64,000 nt of DNA, from NCBI RefSeq assembly GCF_000959445.1, contig NZ_CP009629.1, forward strand, positions 38,621 to 102,620, read 5' to 3'. The notes under the pieces were generated by a model that was not told where the DNA came from, did not search any database, and saw nothing but the letters and a program-made list of their open reading frames with translations. Both the position numbers and the translations under genes were made by a program. Positions within the stretch are counted from its first letter, which is position 1. Each line of letters begins with the position of its first letter. The DNA comes from Burkholderia vietnamiensis LMG 10929. GTDB taxonomy: Bacteria > Pseudomonadota > Gammaproteobacteria > Burkholderiales > Burkholderiaceae. This document shows positions 19,110 through 61,901 of this stretch, one piece after another.

Positions 19110-19123
19110 TTCTGACGTCAGAA
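19110..19123. promoter_or_regulatory. TTCTGACGTCAGAA palindrome (family A, copy 1)
   Basis: A perfect palindrome overlapping the stop codon of the gene 19118-19351. It is the first of nine copies of TTCYRACGTYRGAA in the window; see the dedicated finding. Confidence 0.75.
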
Positions 19124-19351
19124 ATCCTCCCCGTCAAAGAGAGAATCCGTGATCGGCTTCAGATTCTCCACCTTCACGGCAAACTTCACGGTCTCACCAT
19201 TCTTCCCGACGCCCTCGACGACCATCCGGCTTCCGGGCGCCGGACCAAGAACGCGGACCACGTATCCCCTGCGCAAGGTCGTACTGTATCGACCGTTATA
19301 TCGCGCGAGCGCTTTGGGTTCCGGTCGCCACGATTCTCCTTGTTTGCTCAC
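19118..19351 (-). CDS. unknown 77-aa beta-rich protein
   Basis: GTG at 19351 is chosen because AGGAGG lies 7 bases upstream; an in-frame ATG at 19369 overlaps that site. The protein (YSTTLRRGYVVRVLGPAPGS, then VEGVGKNGETVKFAVKVENL) alternates strands and turns as in small SH3-like barrels and ends acidic (DSLFDGEDF). Its stop codon is inside the family A palindrome. Function unknown. Confidence 0.55.
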   Translation of the reverse strand: MSKQGESWRPEPKALARYNGRYSTTLRRGYVVRVLGPAPGSRMVVEGVGKNGETVKFAVKVENLKPITDSLFDGEDF

Positions 19352-19540
19352 CAGAATGCCTCCTCGCACGCTACTTACCGCGAAAGCCGGTTAGTCGACC
19401 ATTGCTGCGTCATGAGCGATTATCCAATCCGCCCACGCTATCTCGACCACCGATATTACCCACCATCGATGTGTGAGCGGTGATTCAAGATACCAGCCAA
19501 CGTTGGCGATAGCTGGTGCGAACCTAGAACTTAGGTTCTC

Positions 19541-19831
19541 CTACTCCTGAACGATCAAATAGGCGCCGCGATCTTTGCCGGCAATCCAGGCAGGAGGCTT
19601 GCCTCGGCCGCTCCACATCTTGCCAGATGCCGGATCGCGATACTTCGCTTCGACAGGCGCGCGCGACTTCTTCTCACGCTTGCCGGCCAACTCCCCGACC
19701 TTGATCGCAAAATCAGCCATCAGTTGCCGGATGGTCGTCAGCGCTCCTTCCCGTTCTTGCGAGCGGGCCGTTGCGATCTGCTTATCGAGCGCAGCGCGCT
19801 CGGCCAGTAGCTCTCGGTAATTCTTAGTCAT
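19541..19831 (-). CDS. H-NS family nucleoid protein
   Basis: Starting at the ATG at 19831 (MTKNYRELLAERAALDKQIA) gives 96 residues, the normal size for Burkholderia-type H-NS. The first 60 residues form the coiled-coil oligomerisation part. The DNA-binding part reads AKYRDPASGKMWSGRGKPPA followed by WIAGKDRGAYLI, with the intact GRGKPP loop that contacts the AT-rich minor groove. Plasmid-borne H-NS commonly silences transfer genes to lower host cost. The promoter region holds AATGATATCA (19928-19937). Differs clearly from the copy at 2094. Confidence 0.9.
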   Translation of the reverse strand: MTKNYRELLAERAALDKQIATARSQEREGALTTIRQLMADFAIKVGELAGKREKKSRAPVEAKYRDPASGKMWSGRGKPPAWIAGKDRGAYLIVQE

Positions 19832-19927
19832 AGGTAAATCAAGCTCCAAAAATAAAGGTGGTACCGCTCTCATGCTTTTCGAATCAGGCAACGCGGAGAT
19901 GGCCTGCTAATGCTAGCGCCGCAGCAG

Positions 19928-19957
19928 AATGATATCAAGCTATTTTTATATCACTCT
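19928..19957. promoter_or_regulatory. AT-rich operator-like pair upstream of the H-NS gene (family C)
   Basis: AATGATATCA (19928-19937) and TATATCACT (19949-19957) flank a TATTTT stretch. They match a motif, roughly AATGATATCATT, recurring in at least seven other promoter regions of this element. They lie about 100 bases before the H-NS start. Confidence 0.5.
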
Positions 19958-20170
19958 GAAATTTGATTCGGCATCATTTCGCCGTAGAGCATTTTCTGTA
20001 ACGCTGAAGCGCATGGAATGCCCAAAGGGTCGCGGGCAACCATCCCACGATGCTCAACTGGAGCAGCAAACAAGCTACGCTCGCTGCAGGGCGCCGAATC
20101 GTCAAGAACGTCAACCAGGGAAACACTGCCGCGATCGCAAGACGCTTCAGCCCTTGCTGTAGCTTTCGGT

Positions 20171-21363: not shown

Positions 21364-22045
21364 CGTCCAACTCCGAAAATTTCGCCTGCAACAGCCCGCT
21401 GGAGCGCCGCGACTCACCGTACGCGCGCGCCGATCGACGCACCGATCCTGCAGGACTAGCCGAGACCGTGCGCAATGCTGTCGTTCTCAATTCCGGCACT
21501 GTCGCGCCGGCATTTGTCACAACGCGCTGAACGTACCCATTCGAGAAGCCGGAGTCGAAATTTCCCGTGTTATAGGCGGATATCGCCGCGAGCAACGCGG
21601 TTTGCTGATCCTTGTATTGCCTCAAAGCGTTGAGATAGAAGTCAGTCAGAATCTGCCCGCCCGCTTTCAAATTCACGCACGGATCGAGCACCTGCTCAAC
21701 AGTGAGGCCAAGGCGCGACAGGTTCTGACTACTGACCTGCGTCAACCCGATATCGACCAGATGCCCGTCATTAATCAGCGACTTCGCAATATCCGCAGCC
21801 TCTTGCGCTGTGCTCGGGTAGAAGCTCCGCACCATCGACTTCCGAAGCGACCACGGCAAATTGCGAGGACCGCTGTCCGCGAGCACGTACATATGACCGC
21901 GGGACTCGGTACGCACGATCGCGCTCAACGTAGTCGGGTGTACGCCTGGAGCACATTGCGCCATTAGCGTTGTGAGATCCTGCGCATGGGCAGCTTCCAA
22001 CGTCAGAAGCACGCCAACCACAGCGCACATCAGTCGGATCAGCAT
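21350..22045 (-). CDS. VirB1-like lytic transglycosylase
   Basis: A periplasmic enzyme that opens peptidoglycan for assembly of the mating channel. A signal peptide spans residues 1-21 (MLIRLMCAVVGVLLTLEAAHA). The SLT domain has the catalytic Glu47 in SAIVRTESRG, then DIGLTQVSSQN and AISAYNTGNF, the standard motifs. Length (231) suits VirB1. It overlaps the upstream unknown gene by 7 bases in the virD4 operon, far from the main trb operon. One family A palindrome (21995-22008) lies in its signal-peptide codons. Confidence 0.92.
   Translation of the reverse strand: MLIRLMCAVVGVLLTLEAAHAQDLTTLMAQCAPGVHPTTLSAIVRTESRGHMYVLADSGPRNLPWSLRKSMVRSFYPSTAQEAADIAKSLINDGHLVDIGLTQVSSQNLSRLGLTVEQVLDPCVNLKAGGQILTDFYLNALRQYKDQQTALLAAISAYNTGNFDSGFSNGYVQRVVTNAGATVPELRTTALRTVSASPAGSVRRSARAYGESRRSSGLLQAKFSELDVEFH
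21995..22008. promoter_or_regulatory. TTCCAACGTCAGAA palindrome-like site (family A, copy 2)
   Basis: A copy of TTCYRACGTYRGAA inside codons 13-17 of the virB1-like gene. Confidence 0.55.
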
Positions 22046-22680
22046 CGCTTCACCTCCTTGCTTTTATAAAATGACATCAGTGCTCGCTCGAGCCTTGCGG
22101 CGATCGCATTCGCACCTTTCTCATCCCAGCCGCATCCGCGGAAGGCCGCCGTCCCCTCGTGCCGCAGGACGGACGGCTCCAACCAACCTCCCGTATCCGG
22201 AAGCGCCCGGTCCACGCCTCCGACGGCCACAAGAAGTGCAAATTCTTTCGGACATTCGATCCTTAGCCAGTCTTGTATCTGCGCTCGATCGCTGAACTGG
22301 TCGTAATGTTGCGCGAGCACTCGCGACAACTCACTACCGATCATGTCGCTCAAACCCCACGGCCGCGCATCCCCTTCAAATCGCTCAAAATCGACAGGCG
22401 ACTCGATCGCCACGACTCGCCGGCCGAACTGCCCGTCGCAGTTCGCGGAAACGAGCAGCACGAGCAATAGCCTTTCCATCGCGGAGATCCGCGGCCAGAA
22501 TGTTGTCCAACGCGTCTGATAGCTTTCCAGCGATTCGAGGCACCAGTTGTACCGTTGCAAGAGCTTGAAAAGGTGTAACGCTGCGTCGCGCGTCATCTCC
22601 ACGGGTTCCCGACCCGGTAACACCTTCACTTTCACATGAGACGTTGCCGCGCGCACATCGCCCAAATTTGCGCTCGCCAT
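22039..22680 (-). CDS. unknown protein of the virD4 operon, 213 aa
   Basis: A soluble protein between the coupling protein and the transglycosylase genes, overlapping both. It contains LHLFKLLQRYNWCLESLESY, ISAMERLLLVLLVSANCDG and FALLVAVGGVDRALPD, with no obvious catalytic motif. The hydrophobic LLLVLLVS patch is too short for a sure membrane segment. Conserved position next to virD4 suggests a transfer role. Function unknown. Confidence 0.55.
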   Translation of the reverse strand: MASANLGDVRAATSHVKVKVLPGREPVEMTRDAALHLFKLLQRYNWCLESLESYQTRWTTFWPRISAMERLLLVLLVSANCDGQFGRRVVAIESPVDFERFEGDARPWGLSDMIGSELSRVLAQHYDQFSDRAQIQDWLRIECPKEFALLVAVGGVDRALPDTGGWLEPSVLRHEGTAAFRGCGWDEKGANAIAARLERALMSFYKSKEVKRC

Positions 22681-25205
22681 CAGCTAACGGCCCCCTGCTT
22701 GCCCGTATATTTGATCGCAACTTCCTCCCCGATCTTCACTACCCTATCGAGCTTCGATTTGCGATGCACGGATACCTGCGCACGGTCCTGCAATTTTTGT
22801 AGGATCACGTAATGGCTCGTATCGAGCAACACGCGTCCCGAGTAGCGCCGATCCGGCACCACGCGCTCGATTGTCGGCTCGATTTTTTCGCCCTCCTTTT
22901 CCTCCAGTTCATGGAAATAGTCGCGAGTCTTTCGCCGAGCTGCGCGCTCGTGGACGGAGATATCTCTGTAGAAGCCCGTCTGGGAAAAATGCCTGAATGG
23001 CGACGGATCCTTGACTACGAAATGAACTTCGAATGCTTCGTTCACGTCGAAGTCCCCGATATTGCCGACAGGCCGCGCAACGAACTTAAGATCGTCCGTC
23101 GTCAGCGGCCGATCGACGATTTCGCCGCGGCTATCGAACAATGCAAAATCGAATTCCTGCACTACCTCCCGCTCGACGTGCTCCTGCTTGACGACGATTC
23201 TCACCGGCGGAAACTCGCGATAGACGTTGATCGTTACGACAAGGTCGTTGCCTTTTTGCGGCCGTTCACAATGAACCATGAACCATTCACCGACCACCTT
23301 CCCGCGCTCGCCGGCATACGTCATAGCGACGCGGCTCGGAGGGGAGATCTTTGCCCGCTTCTGAAATTCAGGCATTTCGTAGTACTTCAGCTTCTTGCCC
23401 CGAATTGGCGGATGCCCCGTATTGAAGACGAGAATCTCGTCTCGCGGAAGCCTCATCACTTCGTCCTGCGTGAGAAGATTGCGCTCCACGTGCTCTTCTG
23501 AAATGCTCATCTGTCCGAGCATCGCGCTTAAGCGGTTGCCCGAGTAGGACACGTTCTGTCGCTTTACTGTGGTTACACCCGTCCGCCGTGAGATGTCGTC
23601 GGCCGACTGCAACGTGTTTGGCGCGTACGCAATACGCAACTGGCACCCGGCCGATATCGTCTCGTTATCCCCATAGACCTCCTTCAGTTGGATCCCATCT
23701 TGCACGAACAGGAAGGCCGTGATGCCGTAACCGGCGAGATACCCTAGCCCGTCCTGCAACTGCTCGAGCTTACGCAATGACGGCAGTTCATCAATTTGAA
23801 GAAGCAAGCGATGGAGATAGTCCTTTACGCTCTTGCCATCCTCGAACGCCATGTTTGCGGTGAGTCGGCGCAACAGGAATGTGATGAACAACCGGATGAG
23901 CGGGCGCAGCCGTTCCTTGTCGGACGGCGGCACGATCAGGTAGAAGCTAACGGGTTTCGCATGATTCATCAGGTCCGTGACGCTGAAGTCGGACCTCGCT
24001 GTATTCCTGGCCACGATCGGCTCCGTGTACAGGCTCAGCTTTGTCTTTGCCGTCGAAAGAACGCTATTACGCTCCTTCTCTTCCTTGTTGAGCATTGCGC
24101 GTGCGGAAATCGCAACCTGCGGATGAGTCTTCGTTGGATTTCCGCCTGAGTCCAGCCATCCCATGCTGCCGTCCGGGTCGTGCTCCGCCTGCAACATTCG
24201 AAGGAACATCTGTTCGGGGTCTTCAAAGCTCGGATCAGCCATGTACGTTGACACGCCAGTCAGCGACTTATCACGCTCATAGTATTTGACGTGAAGAATT
24301 AGCCCGGTGAGAAACTCGTAGGACGTGCTGACCCAGTGATCGTCCATGCCCTCGCCGTCCGGGTCCGCGATCGCCTGTGCGAGGTTCTGCGCGTCCATGA
24401 CATCGTATTCGCTAAACGCTCGGAGCTCGTCCAACGCGTTCCAGCATGCTGCTACGTTATAGCGGCTCCTGCCGTCGATACTTTTCTGATCAAGCGCTGT
24501 CGGGTCGAACCGAATAACAAGCGTGCCGGCGGTATGCCGGAAGCCGCTCGTCAGCTCGAAATTCTCCCCCTTGATGTCATTCGTCGCCGTACTCTCTGGG
24601 TACGACAGCAGCGTAGTAATGACTGGGCCAACGCCCTTACCGCTTCGACTTGGTGCCTCGCAAAGCGCATGTGCGGGATCGCTGTAACGCATTACCTGCC
24701 GGCCGGCCGACGAGTCGAACAGTCCGACATAGAGTCCCGCGGCTTTAAATCGCTTGAGCCGGCGACGCCACACCGGCCCTTCCCAACGTTCGTATGAGAT
24801 AAGCCCCATCTTCTGCACATCACGCTCCGTCGCCCACCTGGCTGAGCCATGAAGCTCGTCGTGCGATTCGCTTTTCAGGCTTCGTCGGTAATAGAGCACG
24901 AATCCGGCGACGGTGCTTGCGACGATCCCGGCGCAAATGATGTAGAGCATCCTGGACACGTACGTGCCCAGCAACCCCTTCGCACCGACCCATTCGGACG
25001 CCCACTCGATACACGAGAAGGGCTGGTAGATTTTGACTCTGCTTCCGAAGTGGAAAGCGGCGTCGCCGAGGCCATCCTGATATTGAACGGCCGCGGCGAA
25101 ATACTGCGTCGCGCACCACAGCGATAGTATTACGCCAAGGCAAAAGAGGAAGATGATCTGGCCGCTGAAGCGAACCGATTGATTTCGCTGCCCCGCCACG
25201 CGCAT
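22680..25205 (-). CDS. virD4: VirD4/TraG-type conjugation coupling protein with KfrB-like tail
   Basis: An inner-membrane hexameric ATPase that brings the relaxosome to the secretion channel. Two membrane segments (about 15-38 and 84-106) precede the Walker A CEAPSRSGKGVGPV (about 182-195), the family's SRSGKGVG; Walker B is LLLQIDELPSL near 490. At 841 residues it is longer than VirD4 (about 650). The extra C-terminus ends in a KfrB-like module (RYSGRVLLDTSHYVILQ ... VKIGEEVAIKY) that I have not seen described on coupling proteins. It heads the operon 25205-20171. The leader contains an AT-rich GATTTAGATATAGC stretch. Confidence 0.93.
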   Translation of the reverse strand: MRVAGQRNQSVRFSGQIIFLFCLGVILSLWCATQYFAAAVQYQDGLGDAAFHFGSRVKIYQPFSCIEWASEWVGAKGLLGTYVSRMLYIICAGIVASTVAGFVLYYRRSLKSESHDELHGSARWATERDVQKMGLISYERWEGPVWRRRLKRFKAAGLYVGLFDSSAGRQVMRYSDPAHALCEAPSRSGKGVGPVITTLLSYPESTATNDIKGENFELTSGFRHTAGTLVIRFDPTALDQKSIDGRSRYNVAACWNALDELRAFSEYDVMDAQNLAQAIADPDGEGMDDHWVSTSYEFLTGLILHVKYYERDKSLTGVSTYMADPSFEDPEQMFLRMLQAEHDPDGSMGWLDSGGNPTKTHPQVAISARAMLNKEEKERNSVLSTAKTKLSLYTEPIVARNTARSDFSVTDLMNHAKPVSFYLIVPPSDKERLRPLIRLFITFLLRRLTANMAFEDGKSVKDYLHRLLLQIDELPSLRKLEQLQDGLGYLAGYGITAFLFVQDGIQLKEVYGDNETISAGCQLRIAYAPNTLQSADDISRRTGVTTVKRQNVSYSGNRLSAMLGQMSISEEHVERNLLTQDEVMRLPRDEILVFNTGHPPIRGKKLKYYEMPEFQKRAKISPPSRVAMTYAGERGKVVGEWFMVHCERPQKGNDLVVTINVYREFPPVRIVVKQEHVEREVVQEFDFALFDSRGEIVDRPLTTDDLKFVARPVGNIGDFDVNEAFEVHFVVKDPSPFRHFSQTGFYRDISVHERAARRKTRDYFHELEEKEGEKIEPTIERVVPDRRYSGRVLLDTSHYVILQKLQDRAQVSVHRKSKLDRVVKIGEEVAIKYTGKQGAVS

Positions 25206-25263: not shown

Positions 25264-27117
25264 CTAGCCGTAGTATCTCTCGCGGCTCATGCTCTTGTCT
25301 TTCTCCGCCGTCTCTACCTGGCCTCGACCGTTGCTGTAGACGATTTGAGCAGCCTTCCCCACTGAGGGCACTTTGTCCAGCCGACTAAGATCGTGCGCTA
25401 CGGCGGTTTGCCGCCCCACATTCTGTACGGCGTGCGAGGACGTGTTGCCGACCACGGGACCTACGTAGCGCCCATTATCGCGCGCAGCACTCACCACCGC
25501 GCCATCACCGATTGCAGCTTTAGCGACTTCCTGCGGGGTCCGTTCGGGCATTGCTACGGCGCGCGCCAACATGGCCATGCCGATCTGCCGCCGGACTGTA
25601 CTGAGCCCCTCCCGCTCATGCAGATCATTGAAATCGGTAGGACCGCCCTCGAGCGATTGAAACGCGGGGAAGGTCGCCTTGGCGTTGTGCGACGCGGCCG
25701 CCGCCAAAGCCTTTTCCCGGCCGCCATTCACGATCTTCACCGTAACATGCTTGTCGGTCGCTTCGTTGCGAATCTCGCCGACGACACGCTGAACGCCTTC
25801 GGGACTGAGTTCGTAGCGCAGCTCGATCGTGCAGTCGGGATTGCCCCGGAGGTTCCTTCGCACGCCATCGACTTCGATTTCATCCTCATCGATTTGCGGG
25901 AGTTTCAGCCTCTCGACAGCGAAGTCGGACGTGATAACCTTGCTGACGGTCCGTACGATTCGATCCTGCGTCAGGACATCGTCGTCTCCACAAACGATCA
26001 AATCACGTCCGGCGAGACGCGGCGCCAGCGCATCCATAACTGGCCCGATGTTTCCGCCGTCGAAGACCTCAACCACGGGAAGGCGCGTCGCCATATGCAG
26101 CGACGCACATGTCGCGTAACCCTCCCCGAAGAGAATCGTCTTGCCGGCATTGATGTCGCCAAGCACGTGAAAATGCCCTGCTTTCTGACCACCCTTCTCG
26201 TAGAGCTTGTTGCCCCTCGGGTCCACATATTGCAGGCTCCACACCCTCCCGTCAGCGTCGCGAATAGGTGTGACTAACTTGTCGCCGTCGAGCCGCAGCC
26301 CGAACGACTCCACCTGCTTCCGATCCAGATAGGCATGTGAGAGTGCCGGCGACAGGGACTGCCATTTTTTTTCGCACACGGCCGCAACGCGAGCGTATTG
26401 GGCGGCGGTTTGCTCTTCCTGCTGCCGGCGACTGTCCGCCAAGGCCTGTTGCCGCTGTACGCGCGCCTCAACTGCTGCATCGTCCCGATCAGCCCCGGCA
26501 ATTGAATCCGGCGTCGGCCGCACATGTGAGCTTGATCGTTGTAATGAATAGCGCTGGTTATGTTCCAGCGCTTTACGGATTCGCTCGCGCTCCTCGGAGT
26601 TCATCGTGATGCCATGCGGCCGCCATGCACGATCTTCGCCCGTGTCGAAGTTCTTGATGTAGCCGTTCGCCTTGCCATCGACCAACGTCGCCTTATACGC
26701 ACCTTTGAGAGCCTTGATGCTCTTGCTTGTTGACACCCTGGTGTCCTGCCACGAGCCATCCATTTTGACCGGCTCAACGAGCACGAGGCCCATGTCCTCG
26801 AGCGCACGCTCAAGGTCTGCCTCGATATCCGCATCAGACAACGGGCGCAGCGGCTCGCGCCACGCGTCGAATGCAGCGAGATCCACGCCTCGCGGGACGT
26901 ACCAGAGTTTCAATGTGCGATCAAAGTCCGCACCAAGCTCGCTCGCTCGCTTGATTTCCTCGTATGGCACAAAGATATAAGTCCGTCTGCCGCGCGGAGC
27001 GCGTGCGCCGCTCGTCTTTTCTGACGTTGGAAGCTCGTGCGCGCCGCTGTCCGTTACTTCCATGCTCGAATCCAGCATTTTCCTTCCTCCCACAGGCGTA
27101 CGGACAGCGCTGCTCAT
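25264..27117 (-). CDS. traC: TraC-type Toprim primase with KfrB-like tail
   Basis: Plasmid primase that makes primers on transferred single strands and, in IncP-type systems, is itself sent to the recipient. Domains: a DUF5710-like segment (TYIFVPYEEIKRASELGADF, 46-65), a coiled region, then Toprim with ILFGEGYATCASLH (Glu332) and IVCGDDDV (378-380), and the GGPTDFNDLHEREG signature near 515. The last 65 residues are the KfrB-like module (YVGPVVGNTSSHAVQNVG) followed by a basic end (KDKSMSRERYYG). The next gene upstream overlaps it by 4 bases. A family A site lies in codons 29-33. Confidence 0.9.
   Translation of the reverse strand: MSSAVRTPVGGRKMLDSSMEVTDSGAHELPTSEKTSGARAPRGRRTYIFVPYEEIKRASELGADFDRTLKLWYVPRGVDLAAFDAWREPLRPLSDADIEADLERALEDMGLVLVEPVKMDGSWQDTRVSTSKSIKALKGAYKATLVDGKANGYIKNFDTGEDRAWRPHGITMNSEERERIRKALEHNQRYSLQRSSSHVRPTPDSIAGADRDDAAVEARVQRQQALADSRRQQEEQTAAQYARVAAVCEKKWQSLSPALSHAYLDRKQVESFGLRLDGDKLVTPIRDADGRVWSLQYVDPRGNKLYEKGGQKAGHFHVLGDINAGKTILFGEGYATCASLHMATRLPVVEVFDGGNIGPVMDALAPRLAGRDLIVCGDDDVLTQDRIVRTVSKVITSDFAVERLKLPQIDEDEIEVDGVRRNLRGNPDCTIELRYELSPEGVQRVVGEIRNEATDKHVTVKIVNGGREKALAAAASHNAKATFPAFQSLEGGPTDFNDLHEREGLSTVRRQIGMAMLARAVAMPERTPQEVAKAAIGDGAVVSAARDNGRYVGPVVGNTSSHAVQNVGRQTAVAHDLSRLDKVPSVGKAAQIVYSNGRGQVETAEKDKSMSRERYYG
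27019..27032. promoter_or_regulatory. TTCTGACGTTGGAA site (family A, copy 3)
   Basis: A copy of TTCYRACGTYRGAA near the 5' end of the primase gene, inside its coding sequence. Confidence 0.55.
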
Positions 27118-28718
27118 CGGCTATGCGACTGCGAACGCCCCTTACCCGTGTCGATCGTAGCGCGACCATTCTCGTACTGAACACGCAAGCTGCCCCCGCG
27201 TTCGATCACCTTCTTCAGGTCCGCCGCATTGAAGGCCCCCTTTTCATGAACGACGGCCACCTTTCGGCCGACGTCCTGCACAACATGATGGTCGGTCTCG
27301 TGCAGCACTTTGCCCGCGTAGCGGCCGTTGCGATCGTTCAGTGGTTGCGTCACGCCGACCGTATCCAGCGCGAACTCGTTCGCTGCCTTCAGCGACTTCG
27401 CTTTCGCTTCGGCATCGTTCACGGTCGCACCGGCCGCTGCCCTCGACTGGCTCGACACACCATCCTTTCCCGTACGTTCACGAGCCCGCTTCAGCGTTTC
27501 CAGATCCTTCTCGGTCGGCTCATAGCCGACGACCCTCAGACCGGCCATGCTCGCGTGATGCCAGGATTCGCTGCGGAATTTCTCAGTGCCCGTGACGAGG
27601 ATTGCGCCCCACTCCTTTGCCTTCGCCAGCTCGATCGCCGCCTGAAAGGCGTCCATCTGCTTATCCACAAAGCGAATCTTCTCGGCTTCGTCCACAAGCG
27701 CGACGCGGCTCTCGCCCTGGCGCCGATACTCGCCGTTCTCGCCGCGCACGAACCTGCCAGCAAGCAAGGTCGCCGGACCTTGCTTTGCCGTGGCCGCGCC
27801 CTCCTTCCCGCTCGACGGCGCTTGCTCCGGAGCTTTCACGAAAGCGTCCTCAGCCCCATGAGTGGCATCCTTTCGCTCCATCGTGCCGGGGGCAGGCCGG
27901 ATCGCATTCTCGATTCCCTGCTCATCAGCCGCGTGTTCCTCGGCCTCACGCCGACGCGCCGCGTCAAGCACCTCAGCCCCTGCAATGTCGACCGGTTGTA
28001 CAGGATCGAGCGACGCCGATTCGCCCATTGCTTCGCGCACAAACGTGGGCGGGCTTATCGTTTTCGGACCATGTTGCGTCCACAATTCTGCTGCTCGCTT
28101 CGAATCACTCTTTGCGAAGGCCGCGAGGTCCTTCAGGATCGATTCAGCGGTCTTCCTCGCGGCAAGTCGCTCGCCTGTATCCTGAAGATATGCGTAATAC
28201 CAGTTCGCTTTGGCCATACGCTCGCCCAGCGCAGCGCCCTCGTCGATGGCGGGCGCCGGCATGATCGCATTCTCGACAGCATCACGAGCGTGAGCCTCGC
28301 TCCCACGTGCATCCTGCTGCACGGGTGCGACTGCCGCGGCCTGCGCTTTCTCGGACGCGCTAGCCGTACGAGATGCTTCGCGCGACTCCTCGCTCAACTC
28401 AAAGAACGCCATCACAGCCGCACGGTCGGCGGGAGTGCGCTGAGCCAGATGGTTGTTCAGGGCATCCAACGACGGAAGCTCCTGCACGCCATCCAGCGAG
28501 CCGGCTGCGGGAAGAAATGCCAGTCGCGAAACCGCCCCGCCTTCACCCGGCGTATAAAAATATTCACCCTCCGCCGTCTTCAATTCCTTGCCCGGCACAT
28601 ATTCGTAGCCAGTGAGCGCGCTCGGGACGACTCGCCCCGCCCCTTGCGCCGCGGTTTCCCGCTCAGCCACGTCGAGATCCGTCACGATCTGTTCCACTCC
28701 GGCCACCGCTTGCTCCAT
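27114..28718 (-). CDS. LPD7-like polyvalent protein with KfrB-like tail
   Basis: The start is placed at the second ATG (28718) because GGAGG precedes it by 5 bases; an in-frame ATG lies at 28730. The N-terminal half is Ala/Glu-rich and partly coiled. Residues around 375-430 (FVDKQMDAFQAAIELAKAKE, then WGAILVTGTEKFRSESWH) match the LPD7 domain found in relaxases and plasmid polyvalent proteins. The C-terminus is the KfrB-like module (YAGKVLHETDHHVVQDVG) with a basic, Ser-rich end (TGKGRSQSHSR). No enzymatic motif. It sits upstream of and overlaps the primase gene. Confidence 0.75.
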   Translation of the reverse strand: MEQAVAGVEQIVTDLDVAERETAAQGAGRVVPSALTGYEYVPGKELKTAEGEYFYTPGEGGAVSRLAFLPAAGSLDGVQELPSLDALNNHLAQRTPADRAAVMAFFELSEESREASRTASASEKAQAAAVAPVQQDARGSEAHARDAVENAIMPAPAIDEGAALGERMAKANWYYAYLQDTGERLAARKTAESILKDLAAFAKSDSKRAAELWTQHGPKTISPPTFVREAMGESASLDPVQPVDIAGAEVLDAARRREAEEHAADEQGIENAIRPAPGTMERKDATHGAEDAFVKAPEQAPSSGKEGAATAKQGPATLLAGRFVRGENGEYRRQGESRVALVDEAEKIRFVDKQMDAFQAAIELAKAKEWGAILVTGTEKFRSESWHHASMAGLRVVGYEPTEKDLETLKRARERTGKDGVSSQSRAAAGATVNDAEAKAKSLKAANEFALDTVGVTQPLNDRNGRYAGKVLHETDHHVVQDVGRKVAVVHEKGAFNAADLKKVIERGGSLRVQYENGRATIDTGKGRSQSHSR

Positions 28719-28847
28719 ATCATCCTCCATCTGAAAACCAAGAAATACACGCGTGAGAGACTGTCTCGGCCTGTTGCCAATCCGACCCGACGCGTTAGGG
28801 TCACATCTTCAAAAAGACTCACGGAGGCAAGAGCCTCCGCTTCGACG

Positions 28848-29993
28848 TCATCGCGAAAGTCCTTTGGACTTCGAACGGTCCTGCTGCGGCTCGTACACAC
28901 GTCCGCGGCCGTTCTGATAGACGATCCGCGCGTTGTGCCCGACCTCGGGTGCTTCGTTCAGATTGCGCACGCGATGAAGTGCAACGTGATCTTTGCCGTT
29001 GTGCTGCAGGACGTACCGGTCGTTCGCCGCAAGCACCCGACCGGAGTAGGCGTCGCCGTTCGACACGTAGGCGTCGTGCACTTTTACGCCGTCAATCCGC
29101 TCGTTCGCGATCGACTCCATCTGATCACGGTCGGCCCGGTCGGCAACATATTCCTTGCGCATGTCGTTGACTGCGCGCGCCACGAAAGTCTTCAGGTTCA
29201 CGTCGGCCACGTGGACATTTTCCTTGCGATCGAAGTGCGCCCCGTCGACACGCCGGATGCGATCGGAAAGAGTCGGATTGAAGTCAAAGCTGATCTTGTA
29301 CTTGTCGCCGTCCTGCACGACCGTCACTCCATCCACGGACCGACCGAGAGACGCATCCAGCTTTTCCTCGAGCGTATGCATCTGGCTGACCGCTGCACGC
29401 CCCTTTTCCCCGTAGGTAATGGACACTTTGTCGCCCTTGAATACTTGATCGCCCAACTCCGACAATCGGTGAAGCGTCACGAAAGCGATGCCATCGCGGC
29501 GGCCAAAACCGGTCAGCTGCGCGGCATACCGATCGTTCACGCTTATGATTTCCCCGCGTAGCGATTCGCCGACCTGGTGGAAATCTGAGAGGCGCGCCGG
29601 CGGGGCTGACTCGATACCAGCGGCCTGCTGTCGCTCAACAGCCATCGCCCCTGCAAGTCGCTCGATATCCCCGCGCGAGGCGATATCGACCAGGTACTCC
29701 GAGCGCATACGAGCCACGGCATCGCCGAGCGCGTCGTACTGCGACACCGGAACCTTCCACGCATCCGCGTTTCGATCGAACTGCGCACCGTCGATCTTGT
29801 GCATTTGCGCGACAAGAACCGGGTTGTAGCCGAAACGTACGTCGTATGTGTCACGGCCATCGAAAACGACCTTTACACCGTTTTCGTCGCCATCAAGCGG
29901 ATTCAACCGTTGCCGCTTCACGTCCGGGTTCACACGGGCGCGCGAGCGTCGCGATTCGCTTGCAGGCGCATTGTTGAGAGCTTCGCCACTCAT
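28848..29993 (-). CDS. duplicated HARP-like/KfrB-like repeat protein
   Basis: A 381-residue protein built of two tandem units. Unit 1: VVFDGRDTYDVRFGYNPVLV and IDGAQFDRNADAWKV (about 41-80), then a KfrB-like segment (LRGEIISVNDRYAAQL, 145-203). Unit 2: VVQDGDKYKISFDFNPTLSD and VDGAHFDRKENVHVA (about 224-263), then YSGRVLAANDRYVLQHNG (316-333). The first part of each unit resembles the HARP/YD-DW motif of helicase-associated domains. A GGAG site precedes the ATG. It ends basic (DRSKSKGLSR). Function unknown; the internal duplication is directly visible. Confidence 0.75.
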   Translation of the reverse strand: MSGEALNNAPASESRRSRARVNPDVKRQRLNPLDGDENGVKVVFDGRDTYDVRFGYNPVLVAQMHKIDGAQFDRNADAWKVPVSQYDALGDAVARMRSEYLVDIASRGDIERLAGAMAVERQQAAGIESAPPARLSDFHQVGESLRGEIISVNDRYAAQLTGFGRRDGIAFVTLHRLSELGDQVFKGDKVSITYGEKGRAAVSQMHTLEEKLDASLGRSVDGVTVVQDGDKYKISFDFNPTLSDRIRRVDGAHFDRKENVHVADVNLKTFVARAVNDMRKEYVADRADRDQMESIANERIDGVKVHDAYVSNGDAYSGRVLAANDRYVLQHNGKDHVALHRVRNLNEAPEVGHNARIVYQNGRGRVYEPQQDRSKSKGLSR

Positions 29994-30102: not shown

Positions 30103-30645
30103 CTATCTTGTGATTGATCCACGACTGGCGTCGCGGCCGCGATCGGCCACCACTCCGCGGCCTTCCGAGTAAGTGATTGCAACGCTTTTCCCAACCTGCG
30201 GCACACGATCGAGTTTGGCCAGCTCGTGAATCACGACACTCCCGCGACCGGCTGACTGGACAAGATGAAAATCTGATCTCGAGATGACCTCTCCGACGGT
30301 CTTCCCGTTCTGGCTTGGGGCAAGAATGCGGGTATCGTCACCGTGCTGCTCGCGCGCGGCCTTGACCGCGACGGCGTAGCTTGCCTCGAGCGCAGCTACG
30401 CTACCGGACACGGACGGCAACACCGCGCCCTGCCGAAGCCGGGCCAACTCCGCCTCTTCGGCCCGCCGCTCCTCAACCTGGCGGACGACCTTGACGATCT
30501 GGTTCATCCGTTGCTTTGAAATGCCAGCTTCGGCCGCCGCCGCAACCTGCTGCATCTCTTCCACAAAGACTAGGCGAGCAGCCTCTCGACTTGCGGCCGA
30601 CAGGCCCGTCTCTCGGATCAAATCAGCAAACTCAGCTTCCGTCAT
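30103..30645 (-). CDS. KorA/TrfB-like repressor fused to KfrB-like module
   Basis: Residues 1-60 (MTEAEFADLIRETGLSAASR, EAARLVFVEEMQQVAAAAEA, GISKQRMNQIVKVVRQ) align by eye with the TrfB/KorA helix-turn-helix of IncP plasmids, a global repressor binding a 12-bp palindrome at transfer and replication promoters. The C-terminus (TVGEVISRSDFHLVQSAG ... VGKSVAITYSEGRG) is the shared KfrB-like module, not present in KorA itself. The likely targets are the AATGATATCATT-like promoter sites. A TTCCGAA/TTCGGAA dyad (30651-30657, 30675-30681) overlaps its own leader. Assignment is by motif memory. Confidence 0.72.
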   Translation of the reverse strand: MTEAEFADLIRETGLSAASREAARLVFVEEMQQVAAAAEAGISKQRMNQIVKVVRQVEERRAEEAELARLRQGAVLPSVSGSVAALEASYAVAVKAAREQHGDDTRILAPSQNGKTVGEVISRSDFHLVQSAGRGSVVIHELAKLDRVPQVGKSVAITYSEGRGVVADRGRDASRGSITR

Positions 30646-30698
30646 ACCATTTCCGAATTAGCAAAAAAAAACCGTTCGGAATATATACCACCAAGTCT

Positions 30699-30989
30699 CT
30701 ACTTGGCAGCGCTGACAGTAAAAGGGCGCGTGATTTTGCGCGGCTCCGACCGAACGCCTACGAGCGAGGACTGCTCTTCGAACGCGTCCATGCCCTCTTT
30801 CCACGTGTTCACCAGCCATGCTCGGTAGACGACCAGATCCACGGAGCCATCAGGATTTGTTGCAAACGGCAACGGCTTGTCTACGAACACACGGCCGAGG
30901 ACGCTCGGAGCCACAACCGAACCAGCTGGCGGGACATAACCGCTTTCTTCAGCAAACACCTCACGAACAACCGACGACGCACCCTTCAT
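30699..30989 (-). CDS. unknown protein, 96 aa
   Basis: Start at the ATG at 30989 because GGGAG lies 7 bases upstream. The protein (MKGASSVVREVFAEESGYVP ... VDLVVYRAWLVNTWKEGMDA) has no signal or membrane segment. It lies between the HerA-like ATPase gene and the KorA-like gene. A perfect 13-bp inverted repeat (31067-31098) and a family A palindrome (31117) occupy its upstream region, so it appears to be regulated independently. Not recognised. Confidence 0.55.
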   Translation of the reverse strand: MKGASSVVREVFAEESGYVPPAGSVVAPSVLGRVFVDKPLPFATNPDGSVDLVVYRAWLVNTWKEGMDAFEEQSSLVGVRSEPRKITRPFTVSAAK

Positions 30990-31066
30990 CACACAACTCC
31001 CAATAGGCAGAACTGGATATCCACACGTCACCCCATAAGCGACATGATACGCGAAAATTTCAGTAA

Positions 31067-31098
31067 GTAAAGAGTAGTCGCTATTGACTACTCTTTAC
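31067..31098. promoter_or_regulatory. perfect 13-bp inverted repeat
   Basis: Arms GTAAAGAGTAGTC (31067-31079) and GACTACTCTTTAC (31086-31098) with a 6-base loop. No T-run adjoins either end, so an operator is more likely than a terminator. It lies in the 31032-31224 gap upstream of the 96-residue unknown gene. Confidence 0.65.
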
Positions 31099-31116
31099 CT
31101 GGTCACCCCCCGGTGC

Positions 31117-31130
31117 TTCTGACGTTGGAA
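31117..31130. promoter_or_regulatory. TTCTGACGTTGGAA site (family A, copy 4)
   Basis: Intergenic copy of TTCYRACGTYRGAA, 19 bases from the 13-bp inverted repeat and about 95 bases from the ATPase stop. Confidence 0.7.
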
Positions 31131-31224
31131 GCCGGTCGGCAACGTTGCCCGTCCATAACACAATCTCTTACAGTGATTACATTAAGTTACATGGACGTTA
31201 GATTGTAACTTAAATATAAGACCA

Positions 31225-32514
31225 TTAAAGCGCCACCCAGTAAGCACCCGCGTTCAGTTCGCCCTTCCTCTTCATCTGCACGACGATCCGACGATGCGGC
31301 ACGATGAACTTCAGCGCGGCCTCCGGCACGCCGAACTTTCCGATCGCAGCTCGCCAGTAGTTCCTGTCGATCCCCAAGATCAATTTCGTTCCAAGACTGG
31401 ATATCAGGACATCGGCAAAATCCGTCAAAGCTTGAGAGGCAAAAATCATCGAAACGCCGAATTTGCGCCCCTCTCGCACCATCTTGTTGATGATGTAGTC
31501 TTCGTCCTTGTCCTGATACAGGTGCGCCTCATCGATCATGCAAACGTCCACGATGTCGCTCTGCGGGCCGCGCTGCACCGCACGACTAAAGATCGTTTCC
31601 AGCCGCGTGATAGTGAAGAGCTTCTTCTCATCCGGACTAAGCGACGTGATGATGTAGCGCCAGACTCGGCAACGTGGATCAAGAGGGGGCGGAGTGCTGC
31701 GATATATGCCGATCGCGTATAGGTTCTCGAGGCGATCCAAGACCGACTTAATCGTCTCTTCCTGGCCGTCGGATTCAATCGCCCTGTCCAGTTCGTCCCC
31801 CGTGTGAACGCTTAGGACTGCCTCGCGGAATGCGTCGATCGCCTTCTCTTTGGCATTGTCCAGTTCACGCTGGAGCTTCGTCAGAGTCTCGTCGTTTCCG
31901 AGACGCGCGAGCGCAACCTCCTTCGCGCGCATCTGACGCGCAACGCGCTCAACTTCCTGGAAGGCCTGCACTGCCCGCTCGTCCGAGCCGACGTACATCT
32001 CCTTCAACCGCTCCCGACCGTACTCGATCGCATCGGGCAAGGTTGGATACCGCTTTCCAGCGGCCACATCCACGGCCCACGTGGAAGCATCGTCGGCGAC
32101 GAAACCGTGCCGCCGGTAAAGGCCCGTCAGGAGCTTCGTAAGCGCCCGCTCTTGCCGTGGGCCAAGGCGAACTGACGTGCGATTGATCGCCGCAATGAGA
32201 GATTGGATGCGCTTGCGCACCCCGCCGAATTCGGGGTCCGGATTCAGCTCGAGGGGATTGAAACCGAAGTCCGCCGACTCGTGAAACCTTACCGCGGATT
32301 CGCCAGGAATCTCGACGTCGCCATGCGCGTCGAACACATGGATGCGAAGACGGCGACCACCTGTTTCCTGCATGGCCTGCGCTATCTTGCGCAGCATCGT
32401 AGTCTTTCCCATACCGGAATCTGCGAAGGCGGCGATGTGCGGATTCACAACAGTGTCAGAATCCCACACAACGTCACCACCACTTTGGGCATTCAAGCCC
32501 CATCGAATCTGCAC
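31225..32514 (-). CDS. HerA/FtsK-like ATPase (DUF87 type)
   Basis: A 429-residue P-loop ATPase starting with GTG (AAGGA upstream). Walker A is ADSGMGKTTML at about 31-41, HVFDAHGDVEIPGES follows, Walker B is VCMIDEAHLYQDKDED near 330, and FASQALTDFADVLISSLGTK is the arginine-finger-side motif of VirB4/HerA ATPases. It lacks membrane segments, so it is not the coupling protein. A long helical insert spans about 160-250. It follows the parAB operon after a terminator. Possible roles: DNA pumping or single-strand handling in transfer. Exact function unknown. Confidence 0.8.
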   Translation of the reverse strand: MQIRWGLNAQSGGDVVWDSDTVVNPHIAAFADSGMGKTTMLRKIAQAMQETGGRRLRIHVFDAHGDVEIPGESAVRFHESADFGFNPLELNPDPEFGGVRKRIQSLIAAINRTSVRLGPRQERALTKLLTGLYRRHGFVADDASTWAVDVAAGKRYPTLPDAIEYGRERLKEMYVGSDERAVQAFQEVERVARQMRAKEVALARLGNDETLTKLQRELDNAKEKAIDAFREAVLSVHTGDELDRAIESDGQEETIKSVLDRLENLYAIGIYRSTPPPLDPRCRVWRYIITSLSPDEKKLFTITRLETIFSRAVQRGPQSDIVDVCMIDEAHLYQDKDEDYIINKMVREGRKFGVSMIFASQALTDFADVLISSLGTKLILGIDRNYWRAAIGKFGVPEAALKFIVPHRRIVVQMKRKGELNAGAYWVAL

Positions 32515-32594
32515 GGCTGATTGCTTCCTTGTCGGTGTTGGACGGTTCTGAATGCGTTTTGTGCTTTTTTTATATTACATCGCACCAAACGAAG

Positions 32595-32617
32595 AGGCCG
32601 GAGATTCACTCCGGCCT
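32595..32617 (-). terminator. hairpin terminator after parB
   Basis: A perfect 9-bp stem AGGCCGGAG/CTCCGGCCT with a 5-base loop lies 5 bases beyond the parB stop. Only a short T-rich stretch (CTTCGTTTGG) follows on the minus strand, so it is a moderately strong candidate. Confidence 0.65.
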
Positions 32618-32621
32618 ACTT

Positions 32622-33752: not shown

Positions 33753-33764
33753 GTTTTCATTCCC

Positions 33765-34511: not shown

Positions 34512-34513
34512 TG

Positions 34514-34846: not shown

Positions 34847-34872
34847 TTGAATTCTCTCAATAGCATGATACG

Positions 34873-34925: not shown

Positions 34926-34931
34926 TTATGT

Positions 34932-34976: not shown

Positions 34977-35003
34977 ACGCCGACGTGCAACCGAGATTCT
35001 GGT

Positions 35004-47742: not shown

Positions 47743-47906
47743 TTATGTTCCCGATCGATTCCCCGGAGGATCGGCATCTTGCCGTTCACAGCCTCTATCG
47801 TAACCGCCCCTTTTAGATAGTACAATGATATCATTCTATCACTTAAAGACAGAGCATTTCTGACGTCAGAAATTCACCCGCCGGCTCCACCACTCTTCAG
47901 AGGCTG
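47743..47906. promoter_or_regulatory. divergent control region between trb and pil operons
   Basis: This 164-base gap separates the leftward trb operon from rightward pilL/pilM. It holds the 12-bp perfect palindrome AATGATATCATT (47824-47835, family C) and the 14-bp perfect palindrome TTCTGACGTCAGAA (47858-47871, family A, copy 8), 22 bases apart. Its position makes it the likely main switch for conjugation genes. Confidence 0.7.
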
Positions 47907-56069: not shown

Positions 56070-56072
56070 CCG

Positions 56073-59534: not shown

Positions 59535-59535
59535 A

Positions 59536-61233
59536 TCAGTCGTCCGCAAGAACCGGGGTAATGAGCACGACGAGCATGGTGTGACTCCTCGTGACGTTCA
59601 CGCCTCCGCCGAACCCGAAGAACTTCGCCGTTCCGGCGCCGTCACGGGTCGAGTTCTCGTCGTCGTAGTCCTGGCCGGCAAGCATCACCGTGTCACCGGG
59701 CCGCACGCGAATCGTGTTCGATGTGTTGAGCGGAAGAGAAATGTCCGGCAGTTCAGCCTTCGAACCGTTGCTCTCCACCACACGCGGTTGCCCCTTCTGG
59801 CTCGACAAATTGATGTTCATCCGAAGCTGGATTTTGTTGTCCTCGCGGATATACGGGAACATCGAGATGTTGAAGCCCGTGTTGATCGTTCCGGGCTGCA
59901 AGGCCGTGCTCGAGCCGACCTGAGCAGTTTGCGTGGTACTTGTGCTCGCAAGATAGCTCTGCTGCTCGCCGGTCTGCGTCGCCACCGCATTCAGGTTCAT
60001 TGTGGGAAGTTGAGTGCTTCTCAGCAGCCGTGCCGCACCCTGCTCGTTCAGCGCGCTCACGATTGCCTGCGTACCAGCCCACGGCGATCCAGAGGTGCTG
60101 AGAATCGAGAACGCGCCGTTGATCGCATTCGTAGGTGCCGCGAAGGTATTGGCCACACTGATTCCGTACTTACCCGTCAACGTCTTGTACAGGGCGTTCC
60201 AGCTCACGCCGGCAGAATCCGTGTTGCTGAACGTTACTGAAATCAACTGCACGTTGAACGTGACGAACTTGTCGAATAGCTTGTTCTTGCTATCGATGTA
60301 TCGCTTCGCCGCGTCCAGCTTCTCGCGAGATGCCGTAACCGTCACGCTCCCCATCGACGGAGCCACGCTCACGTTCCCCTTGCCGGCGATCGTTTCGAGG
60401 TTGTTCTGGATTTCTTTCCAGAGGGACGTTTTGAGCGCAACGACCGTGGTTTGCATCGTCGAACTGGACCCCGACCCACCGCCAGACGCAGCACCGGCTC
60501 CCCCCCCCTGCGAGGAGGAAACGCCGTTCACCTGCGTCATACCGCTTCGGAATTCCGATCGCATGTCCGTATCGCTACCATCGGTGCCGCTCCCGATCAG
60601 ATGGACAGGAAAAGTCTGCGTGTCGATGTTGTAGATCCTGATGGAGTGTCCATCCTCGTCCGGCCGCCACGATACGCCGAGGCGTGAAACAACCATGTCC
60701 ATGACCTCGTTCAGATCACAGCCACGGCAATTGATGTCGATCTTGTGATCGTCCGCGATTTTCACGGTCGATTGTGCGTTGGGGGCCAACGGCGGCACGA
60801 CACTCGCGGCGCCTGCGGCTGTCTGGCCGGTTGGCGTTTGAGTACGGCCGGCGGTCAAATCGGGGTTATAGATCGCCGCAATTGCGTCATCGGTCACGTG
60901 CACCGGAATACCGCACTTCTTGGTGATGACTTGGCCGAATTCATAGACCGACACAGGCTCGTTCGTCACTATGTTCATCTTGCCGCAGTCGAGGCGCGGA
61001 CCTTTGGCGGCGACCGTCTCAAGAATCGGAGTCAAACTGACCCACTGCTTCGAGAGGTACTGCACCGTATCGTTAGCGTGCGTTTGCGATTGCGACACTG
61101 CATTCATGTGCCCGGCGATCGTCGCCTTGTCGTTCTCGGCTGACGTTTCGACATGCGAAGCATGCTGGAACGTGTCGCACCCGGAGAGCAGAAGCGCTGT
61201 CACGACCGCAATTGCGATGAGCGATTTTTTCAT
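59536..61233 (-). CDS. pilN: PilN outer-membrane secretin lipoprotein
   Basis: 565-residue secretin with a lipoprotein signal (MKKSLIAIAVVTALLLSGCD, Cys19). N-domains (GQVITKKCGIPVHVTDDAIA, DINCRGCDLNEVMDMVVSRL) precede the secretin domain, which includes AALNEQGAARLLRSTQLPTM-like and QPGTINTGFNISMFPYIRED motifs and ends RSHTMLVVLITPVLADD. A Gly/Ser-rich loop (SSQGGGAGAASGGGSGSSS) lies near 242-260. It forms the pore for the thin pilus. Confidence 0.93.
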   Translation of the reverse strand: MKKSLIAIAVVTALLLSGCDTFQHASHVETSAENDKATIAGHMNAVSQSQTHANDTVQYLSKQWVSLTPILETVAAKGPRLDCGKMNIVTNEPVSVYEFGQVITKKCGIPVHVTDDAIAAIYNPDLTAGRTQTPTGQTAAGAASVVPPLAPNAQSTVKIADDHKIDINCRGCDLNEVMDMVVSRLGVSWRPDEDGHSIRIYNIDTQTFPVHLIGSGTDGSDTDMRSEFRSGMTQVNGVSSSQGGGAGAASGGGSGSSSTMQTTVVALKTSLWKEIQNNLETIAGKGNVSVAPSMGSVTVTASREKLDAAKRYIDSKNKLFDKFVTFNVQLISVTFSNTDSAGVSWNALYKTLTGKYGISVANTFAAPTNAINGAFSILSTSGSPWAGTQAIVSALNEQGAARLLRSTQLPTMNLNAVATQTGEQQSYLASTSTTQTAQVGSSTALQPGTINTGFNISMFPYIREDNKIQLRMNINLSSQKGQPRVVESNGSKAELPDISLPLNTSNTIRVRPGDTVMLAGQDYDDENSTRDGAGTAKFFGFGGGVNVTRSHTMLVVLITPVLADD

Positions 61234-61235
61234 GG

Positions 61236-61715
61236 TCAGTTGTTCTTCAGTTGGACGATGAACGCCCGTTGCTCGGGCTGAATGAGAACCGCAAGGGGTT
61301 TCCGCGCTTTCTCATAAAGGGAGATGCAGTCGGCAACAGCCTTCTCCACCGGCCCTGCAAACTGCAAGGCAATAACGATCGGATAGTTCACTTGCTTGTC
61401 CGGGCCGTCCGGCGCGTTCCACACGAGATGCCATTGCGCCTCGTCCGCCCATTTCTGAATTGACTCGCGCAGCGTCGATCCAGCCGCTGCCGTCCAGGCC
61501 TTCGGCGCCTCGGGCGCGGGCACAACCTGCGTTGCAGGCCCAATCGGGCCGCCGACGACCACTTGGCCTTGGGCCGGGCTCACGCTCGCGAGCACGGTGG
61601 CTGTCGATGCCGACGTTGCCGGCGCGGCTGCGCTCGACGTCGGATCATCGACCATCACCACCCCGGCCATCGCGACCGACGGAACCAAGAGCACTGGAAT
61701 TACTAGACGTTTCAT
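61236..61715 (-). CDS. short PilL-like protein with TcpQ domain
   Basis: 159 residues: signal peptide MKRLVIPVLLVPSVAMAGVV, an Ala/Ser/Thr linker, then a TcpQ-like domain (KAWTAAAGSTLRESIQKWAD, EAQWHLVWNAPDGPDKQVNY, FAGPVEKAVADCISLYEKAR). TcpQ/PilL proteins help the secretin reach the outer membrane, and this gene directly precedes pilN. It lacks the OmpA-like half found in the 47907 protein. First gene of the long pil operon. Its promoter region 61716-61905 carries TATATCATTG (61812-61821). Confidence 0.78.
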   Translation of the reverse strand: MKRLVIPVLLVPSVAMAGVVMVDDPTSSAAAPATSASTATVLASVSPAQGQVVVGGPIGPATQVVPAPEAPKAWTAAAGSTLRESIQKWADEAQWHLVWNAPDGPDKQVNYPIVIALQFAGPVEKAVADCISLYEKARKPLAVLIQPEQRAFIVQLKNN

Positions 61716-61811
61716 CGTTGCATCCTTCGGTTAGCAGGGGCACGCAAGACTTGCCGAGAGCCCTCGTGCGGAGCAGTACCACAAACCACTACGGTACTAT
61801 CAGGATATATT

Positions 61812-61821
61812 TATATCATTG
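61812..61821. promoter_or_regulatory. TATATCATTG site upstream of the pil operon (family C)
   Basis: Half of the AATGATATCATT-type motif in the AT-rich gap between rep and the pil operon, about 97 bases before the first pil start. Confidence 0.45.
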
Positions 61822-61887
61822 TCATACGCGCCACACGGCGAGTCAAATGATTTTTCTAAGTCACTCTGAGATTGAAACCCTCGCCTT

Positions 61888-61901
61888 TTCCAACGTCAGA
61901 A
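61888..61901. promoter_or_regulatory. TTCCAACGTCAGAA site (family A, copy 9)
   Basis: Copy of TTCYRACGTYRGAA 4 bases beyond the rep stop codon, in the rep/pil intergenic region. Confidence 0.65.

Follow-up and report, generated by a model that had tools for sequence, protein, structure and literature searches.

A 14-bp palindrome scattered over a Burkholderia vietnamiensis plasmid is a probable operator of its KorB-like ParB protein

In plasmid RK2, the KorB clamp is described as sliding from distal sites and being locked by KorA at promoters (PMC11790492), and the cooperation between KorA and KorB has been reported to be unaffected by the distance between their operators (PMC2680271). The KorB protein of the IncU plasmid RA3 is described as a ParB that serves in partition and, besides, in the repression of backbone promoters, one of them from a distant site (PMC8124265). 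The ParB of NAH7 is likewise a partition protein that acts on conjugation genes, but as an activator; its similarity to KorB was called low, and neither the length nor the sequence of its par sites matches OB (PMC12421886). Here we describe a 14-bp palindrome, TTCYRACGTYRGAA, in a 64-kb stretch of plasmid DNA from Burkholderia vietnamiensis LMG 10929 (bases 38621-102620 of the 102,620-bp contig C1; hereafter the window, in whose coordinates positions are given). Contig C1 is plasmid NZ_CP083657.1 of B. vietnamiensis FDAARGOS_1488, identical but rotated and reverse-complemented. With a probability of roughly 0.85, judged from comparative sequence evidence, the palindromes are specific sites of the KorB-like ParB protein that this plasmid encodes at 32622-33752. 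A full-text literature search for the letters of the motif found no paper, and no such regulon was described in the titles or abstract beginnings among the matches listed for KorB/KorA/Burkholderia, B. vietnamiensis plasmid ParB and the plasmid names.

The locus resembles KorB-KorA of RK2/RP4 (PMC11790492, PMC2680271) in that a ParB-family protein has an N-terminal CTPase-type fold and a helix-turn-helix (HTH), a parA-type gene is adjacent, one palindrome is present in many scattered copies near promoters, and a second small palindrome, here the putative operator TGATATNNNNATATCA, lies near several of these sites. For RA3, a parS region is mentioned together with two further sites for KorB (PMC8124265), compared to 18 sites on the present plasmid. 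About a dozen plasmid-wide copies are also a feature of IncP-1 KorB, with 11 copies of TTTAGCNGCTAAA in an IncP-like control plasmid (NZ_CP142409) as against 18 of the 14-bp palindrome here. The KorB operator of IncP-1 is TTTAGCSGCTAAA, and the IncP-1 gene order is korA-incC-korB, an order of the type also seen in NZ_CP142409. Unlike in RK2, the operator described here has even symmetry, the KorA-like gene does not precede parA and bears a KfrB domain, and TGATATNNNNATATCA is dissimilar to the KorA operator. Neither the B. vietnamiensis plasmid nor five relatives, two of which were scanned over part of their length, contained a copy of TTTAGCNGCTAAA. Chromosomal ParB-parS and Noc systems belong to the same superfamily and use palindromic sites, but here the sites span the whole replicon, and the canonical parS TGTTTCACGTGAAACA had no copy in the four plasmids checked.

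A pattern scan found nine exact copies of TTCYRACGTYRGAA in the window, each where a first-pass annotation of the same DNA had read one, and the two at 19110 and 47858 were of the perfect form TTCTGACGTCAGAA, as it had stated. Its view that chance was an extremely unlikely origin was confirmed by 100 dinucleotide-preserving shuffles of the window, which gave a mean of 0.00 and a largest count of 0. Allowing up to two mismatches added three copies in the window against 2.08 expected in all, and near-copies are thus about at chance level. The scan it had proposed of the complete plasmid and of related plasmids gave 18 copies here and 12-18 per relative. All 18 copies in the 6.93-Mb, four-contig genome were on contig C1, with zero copies outside C1 and zero for the backwards control pattern in the whole genome. 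The looser pattern TTCNNACGTNNGAA added one site, also plasmid-borne, and its backwards control occurred four times in the whole genome, so the restriction to Y and R at the variable positions is real. The variable dinucleotide was TG or CA in 122 of 126 half-sites from B. vietnamiensis, Paraburkholderia sprentiae, Cupriavidus basilensis and the family genome G069. TG and CA are one base step seen on opposite strands; this points to a flexible step, perhaps read by its shape.

Two of the 18 copies, at 35840 and 39257 of NZ_CP083657.1 and outside the window, lie in a duplicated promoter region. This could suggest that the motif was spread by duplication or, more broadly, that it is a repeat artefact, a methylase target or the site of a host regulator. 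However, the other 6.8 Mb of the host genome contained no copy, the flanks of the remaining copies have little sequence in common, and plasmids of three host genera share the motif, which makes an origin of this kind barely credible. The duplication at 35840/39257 is almost exact and includes the 14-bp site together with TGAGATGATAAAATCA. It recalls the operator-promoter units of IncP-1 plasmids, which one report holds to have been copied (PMC2680271).

Encoded on the plasmid are a ParA-ParB pair, a Rep3 initiator and a KorA/TrfB-like protein that also has a KfrB domain, along with a P-type trb transfer system and a type IVB pilus. The proposed binder is a protein of 376 aa (32622-33752, minus strand) for which domain and structure searches predict a ParB CTPase-type fold. 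It matched ParB_N in Pfam (E 2.3e-18) and, by sequence, the KorB structure 8qa8 (E 1.5e-14). Its AlphaFold model had a mean predicted local distance difference test score (pLDDT) of 76.9 and a predicted template-modelling score (pTM) of 0.48. The best solved match of the model in Foldseek was RK2 KorB in the KorB-KorA-DNA complex 8qa9 (E 1.7e-12; TM 0.76 on the target), with other ParB and Noc structures close behind, and in a sequence profile search chromosomal ParBs outscored KorB. The stretches GERRWRA and ENLQR occur in the protein. The adjacent parA encodes a ParA-family ATPase of 248 aa by domain search (33765-34511, minus strand). The KorA/TrfB-like HTH protein with its C-terminal KfrB domain (180 aa by domain search; 30103-30645, minus strand) is encoded on the other side of parB from parA, beyond a DUF87 gene.

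Relatives were found by tblastn with ParB, and the motif was counted afterwards. The near-identical plasmid NZ_CP020393 carried 18 copies, as did NZ_CP102461 of B. multivorans (ParB 87% identical), which is close kin to the B. vietnamiensis plasmid, and NZ_CP017564 of P. sprentiae (61%); NZ_CP062807 of C. basilensis (45-49%) carried 12. The motif is therefore common to Burkholderia, Paraburkholderia and Cupriavidus, and it was absent from the plasmids with more distant ParBs in Methylovorus (NC_012970; 38-39%) and Acidovorax (CP053916; 35-36%). Among 398 genomes of the family, nine encoded the ParB at E ≤ 1e-30, and all six genomes with at least three motif copies were among these nine (G000, 18; G069, 15; G167, 3; G177, 28; G296, 16; G316, 12). 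The other three had two (G008), one (G029) and zero copies (G034). At least one copy occurred in 62 of the 398 genomes, and none of the 389 ParB-negative genomes exceeded two. The contig that encodes ParB carried all copies in G069 (15/15), G296 (16/16), G316 (12/12), G008 and G029; in G177, of the copies listed, one was on another contig and the others were on the ParB contig, whose sequence starts over after about 83 kb; and in the fragmented assembly of G167 the ParB contig carried one of three. G316 adds no independent case, being the same plasmid as NZ_CP062807.1, and in G069, G167, G177 and G296 the focal motif was counted after discovery by ParB alone. A search across 399 genomes of the order at E 1e-30 recovered the plasmid's own ParB but no relative of it. 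A scan of genome contigs with a ParB alignment returned only ParBs, spread over many phyla, that were 29-42% identical along part of the protein, and it was set aside.

Each plasmid was searched de novo for perfect gapped palindromes that recur in it. In five of the six plasmids whose ParBs are more distant, a different palindrome is repeated, ambiguously so in two of them (Acidovorax YS12 and Diaphorobacter MNS-0). The top palindromes were TTCCTANNTAGGAA in Methylovorus (11 copies), TTTCCCNNGGGAAA in Acidovorax SUPP3334 (seven) and TTTCACNNGTGAAA in G034 (14). In YS12 several palindromes scored alike and TTCCGCGCGCGGAA (four copies) was picked for its likeness, and in MNS-0 TGATATNNNNATATCA scored best (seven), followed by TTTCTCGCGAGAAA (four). 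The same search of the IncP-like control, whose ParB is a related one and in which TrfB-related, ParA and ParB genes lie in a row, returned the 11 copies of TTTAGCNGCTAAA, which we take to be the KorB operator. When seven motifs were counted as exact patterns in 12 plasmids or contigs, counts appeared only where a motif belongs and were zero elsewhere; as the motifs were derived from the same plasmids, the independent part is the off-diagonal zeros and not the diagonal counts. The matrix covered 100,000 of 104,190 bases of G296:C5 and 80,000 of 154,306 of G069:C8; G008, G029, G167, G177 and JS3051 stand outside it, and the near-identical NZ_CP020393.1 and contig C1 were excluded from both the de novo search and the matrix.

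The ParB sequences vary along with the palindromes. Across nine aligned ParBs whose plasmids or contigs carry the focal motif, the recognition-helix region has the form [SGNP]Q[YF][IV]SR, and ParBs found with other motifs have PSYVSR, PSYISR, KATISK, KPWVSK, PAWITR or PAFVTQ; the JS3051 ParB has RSWVSK. The Q column among 68 homologues contained Q in 58, S in seven and A in three. This pattern is a correlation in aligned sequences and is partly phylogenetic. On the 102-kb contig G034:C39, TTTCACNNGTGAAA is close to a parS core with two bases added centrally, and its centre is CA, TG, TA or CG.

Conservation at the DNA level was seen where sites fall within genes. The copy within trbE (43669-43682, minus strand) is identical in six aligned plasmids. 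Across four of them, those of B. vietnamiensis, P. sprentiae, C. basilensis and G069, 42.5% of the columns agree overall, and the sole fully conserved run of at least 14 columns (six of 2,644 windows) lies over the copy. Within trbG lies a one-mismatch copy, TTCGAACGTCAGAA (38545-38558), at which B. multivorans, P. sprentiae, C. basilensis and G296 each have the exact motif, and five of six fully conserved 14-column windows overlap a copy (of 917 windows in three plasmids). Gene bounds were assigned by analogy for trbE in G069 and G296 and for trbG in G296.

The two halves of the palindrome are unequal (TTCTGAC with TTCCAAC) in 15 of 18 B. vietnamiensis copies compared to 9.4 expected (P 0.007), in 16 of 18 in P. 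sprentiae (9.3 expected, P 0.001), in 12 of 15 in G069 (8.4, P 0.05) and in eight of 12 in C. basilensis (5.3, P 0.10). By eye, unequal half-sites mostly, but not always, have the same orientation at equivalent places across the plasmids with the motif.

ParB is the likely binder because the motif is restricted to the plasmid, follows ParB across genomes and is absent with more distant ParBs; it had also been the first candidate named from the sequence, and the comparative tests fit that choice. Several observations weigh against this assignment. The Pfam domains specific for KorB, named KorB and KorB_C, were unmatched in the protein at E values up to 1, and we therefore call it KorB-like and not KorB. 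A symmetric dimer does not obviously explain the excess of unequal half-sites. One of the 18 sites, outside the window, is flanked by an ORF and traI, which converge on it, and the sites therefore cannot all be promoter operators. The ParB of G029 is 57% identical, yet its 103-kb contig has one exact and three one-mismatch sites. In both YS12 and MNS-0 other palindromes scored as well as or better than the chosen ones, of which three of four copies lie within about 1 kb, and Diaphorobacter JS3051 showed no clear palindrome in the first 50 of its 94 kb. Since the halves of the focal motif are unequal in most copies, it was itself outside the top 14 perfect palindromes in B. vietnamiensis, B. 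multivorans and P. sprentiae. Finally, all five PLSDB plasmids counted have the KorA-like gene together with the motif, and the KorA-like HTH also changes in Methylovorus.

The last two points favour another reading, in which the sites are operators of the KorA/TrfB-like KfrB protein at 30103-30645, acting purely as a repressor, and the ParB centromere lies elsewhere. This protein, also encoded in Methylovorus, had been the second candidate of the first-pass annotation; its HTH differs where the motif differs, and one 14-bp site lies upstream of its own genes. The co-occurrence is compatible with that proposal; genomes with only one of the two partners fit it less well. G034 encodes a KorA-like protein (42% identical) and has zero motif copies. 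Conversely, G008 and G029 gave only C-terminal KfrB-type matches and G167 no KorA-like match, although ParB is present in each, with two, one and three exact sites, respectively; all three assemblies are drafts, and their sites are few. Searching with a profile of the KorA-like HTH found none in YS12 or MNS-0 despite related ParBs and repeated palindromes, in plasmids where the palindrome of ParB is itself uncertain, and gave weak matches in Acidovorax SUPP3334 (E 0.006), G029 and JS3051 (E 0.04). In addition, the de novo search that yielded the other palindromes recovers the known KorB operator in the IncP-like control. The KorA-like protein is thus disfavoured as the binder, but is retained as an unlikely one because the numbers are small and the assemblies are drafts.

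Small regulators are a further alternative, namely two ribbon-helix-helix (RHH)-like proteins or an HTH_3 protein. The RHH-like open reading frames (ORFs) adjoin parAB. One, of 110 aa (34514-34846, minus strand), lies upstream of parA, was judged RHH-like by eye and had no match in Pfam, including its RHH families, or in NCBIfam; the other, of 127 aa (35004-35387, minus strand), has an RHH-like C-terminus, again by eye, and a search of 15 other plasmids or contigs found relatives of it in 10, carriers of the motif included. However, these relatives are also found in Methylovorus and G034, both of which are without the motif, and the number and scatter of the sites, intragenic ones included, would suit a ParB/KorB protein better than a local autoregulator, so a small regulator appears a very improbable binder. 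The observation is real and conserved and, with ParB as the preferred binder, very probably represents a KorB-type operator set with a new specificity.

The sites were placed relative to genes by the PLSDB annotation table of NZ_CP083657.1, which is incomplete. It agreed with the earlier division of the window sites into six intergenic and three genic ones, with the site at 19110 touching the 3′ end of an annotated small ORF. Sites lie upstream of the KorA-like genes, parAB, trb and pil, and also shortly 5′ of several smaller genes. The perfect site at 19110-19123 has a similarly flanked perfect counterpart in the B. multivorans plasmid (29428). Besides the trbE copy, the genic candidate operators are found 37 bp into an annotated lytic transglycosylase gene (21995-22008, minus strand), at an equal offset in B. 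multivorans (107042), and about 46 bp into the annotated start of a gene for a DUF5710/KfrB-domain protein (27019-27032, plus strand), with offsets of 46 bp in B. multivorans and 43 bp in P. sprentiae. Three candidate operators on the plus strand lie upstream of the small-ORF and KorA-like genes (31117-31130), upstream of the small ORF-parA-parB genes (34963-34976, TTCTGACGTCGGAA, the same variant in B. multivorans at 93892) and downstream of trbI, upstream of an RHH-like ORF (35917-35930); P. sprentiae also has a site downstream of trbI (27126). The second perfect copy is located between the divergent TcpQ gene and the trb genes (47858-47871), and the last site is just 3′ of the rep gene and upstream of the pil genes (61888-61901, minus strand).

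The distribution along the plasmid was less regular than first proposed. A spacing near 4 kb was not borne out, as gap lengths varied like random ones (coefficient of variation (CV) 0.94, P=0.58). The region from 1 to 19 kb is indeed free of sites, but this absence has no significance on its own, since the largest site-free gap in the B. vietnamiensis plasmid is 23.3 kb (P=0.22). The suggestion that sites mark only the backbone gained from two relatives with site-free gaps of 63 and 74 kb that contain metal-resistance genes (P=0.0007 and 0.0008), but the gap in C. basilensis also contains some transfer genes, and P. sprentiae had no unusual site-free gap (P=0.67).

A second, AT-rich palindrome accompanies some of the sites. 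Five copies of TGATATNNNNATATCA with at most one mismatch were found in the window compared to 0.06 expected: upstream of a DUF1173 gene (12144-12159), between the 34963 site and the start of small ORF-parA-parB (TGATACGATGATATCA, 34866-34881), just 3′ of trbE (43232-43247), between the 47858 site and the trb genes (TGATATCATTCTATCA, 47826-47841) and between the 61888 site and the pil genes (GGATATATTTATATCA, 61803-61818). At parAB, trb and pil, a palindrome of this type thus sits between the 14-bp site and the first gene. The fraction within 110 bp of a 14-bp site was three of five in B. vietnamiensis (0.22 expected by rotation, P 0.0015), three of six in its close relative B. multivorans (P 0.002), two of six in G069 (P 0.03), one of two in C. 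basilensis (P 0.04) and two of nine in P. sprentiae (P 0.06). Forms like TGATATAAA look, by eye, like an extended -10 element; when scanned for sigma-70 promoters, the trb region gave no promoter-like site, 30600-36000 gave four (1.9 expected) and the surroundings of 61800 gave two, and the reading of TGATAT as a -10 is therefore one made by eye. The MNS-0 plasmid (NZ_CP080762) has its seven perfect copies of TGATATNNNNATATCA within GTGATATANNTATATCAC, and YS12 has four copies of TGATANNNNNNTATCA. As both plasmids carry such palindromes without a detectable KorA-like HTH, another protein is indicated, perhaps, as judged by eye, the product of the RHH-like ORF that precedes parA; proteins of the RHH type appear to suit the second palindrome better than the 14-bp sites. 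GACTATAGTC, found near two sites, was considered as a KorA-type operator and dropped, with three copies here, one in B. multivorans and one in Methylovorus.

By analogy to RK2 KorB, a ParB dimer would read TTCYRACGTYRGAA through its HTH, bind cytidine triphosphate (CTP), close into a clamp and slide on the DNA. The scattered sites would mark the plasmid for ParA-driven partition and would also repress nearby operons, namely parAB, the KorA-like genes, trb, pil and accessory genes. At several places TGATATNNNNATATCA separates the ParB site from the gene, possibly overlapping an extended -10, and the protein bound there would probably act with ParB, as KorA does in RK2. The presence of TGATATNNNNATATCA near 14-bp sites in front of operons is suggestive of a clamp-plus-lock regulon similar to that of RK2 KorB-KorA but built from different parts. 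A broader possibility, which we regard as tentative and rather doubtful as a whole, is that KorB-like ParBs of proteobacterial plasmids have diversified into mutually exclusive palindromes, any one of which would mark an entire plasmid, and that the Burkholderia clamp is locked on TGATATNNNNATATCA by a partner other than KorA, perhaps of the RHH type, with unequal half-sites giving direction. The diversification builds on five clear palindromes, including the known KorB operator, and perhaps seven, in which the outer TT is common and the core changes. The 14-bp palindromes are the probable targets of a global regulator in a plasmid family of Burkholderia, Paraburkholderia and Cupriavidus, related ParBs with different palindromes offer a natural experiment on how ParB/KorB DNA specificity changes, and the second palindrome bears on whether partner proteins lock such clamps in systems other than RK2 as well.

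Some further observations concern individual plasmids. In NZ_CP020393.1, the KorA-like coding region (43800-44329) is split over two reading frames and the 18 sites are intact. The regulon on G029:C86, with few sites and no KorA-like HTH found, looks decayed. A third palindrome, GTACCC N3 GGGTAC, has 14 copies in four plasmids, one of them 40 bp from a 14-bp site; it occurs at L020:8119, 8176, 11647 and 14809 (NZ_CP083657.1 58119-64809) as well as in B. multivorans, P. sprentiae and G069, and raises the question of whether it is the operator of another regulator. The KfrB domain (PF18790) forms the C-terminal end of six different proteins in the window (12734-18874, 22680-25205, 25264-27117, 27114-28730, 28848-29993 and 30103-30645), including the coupling protein and the KorA-like regulator, and could be asked to be a shared tag or docking module.

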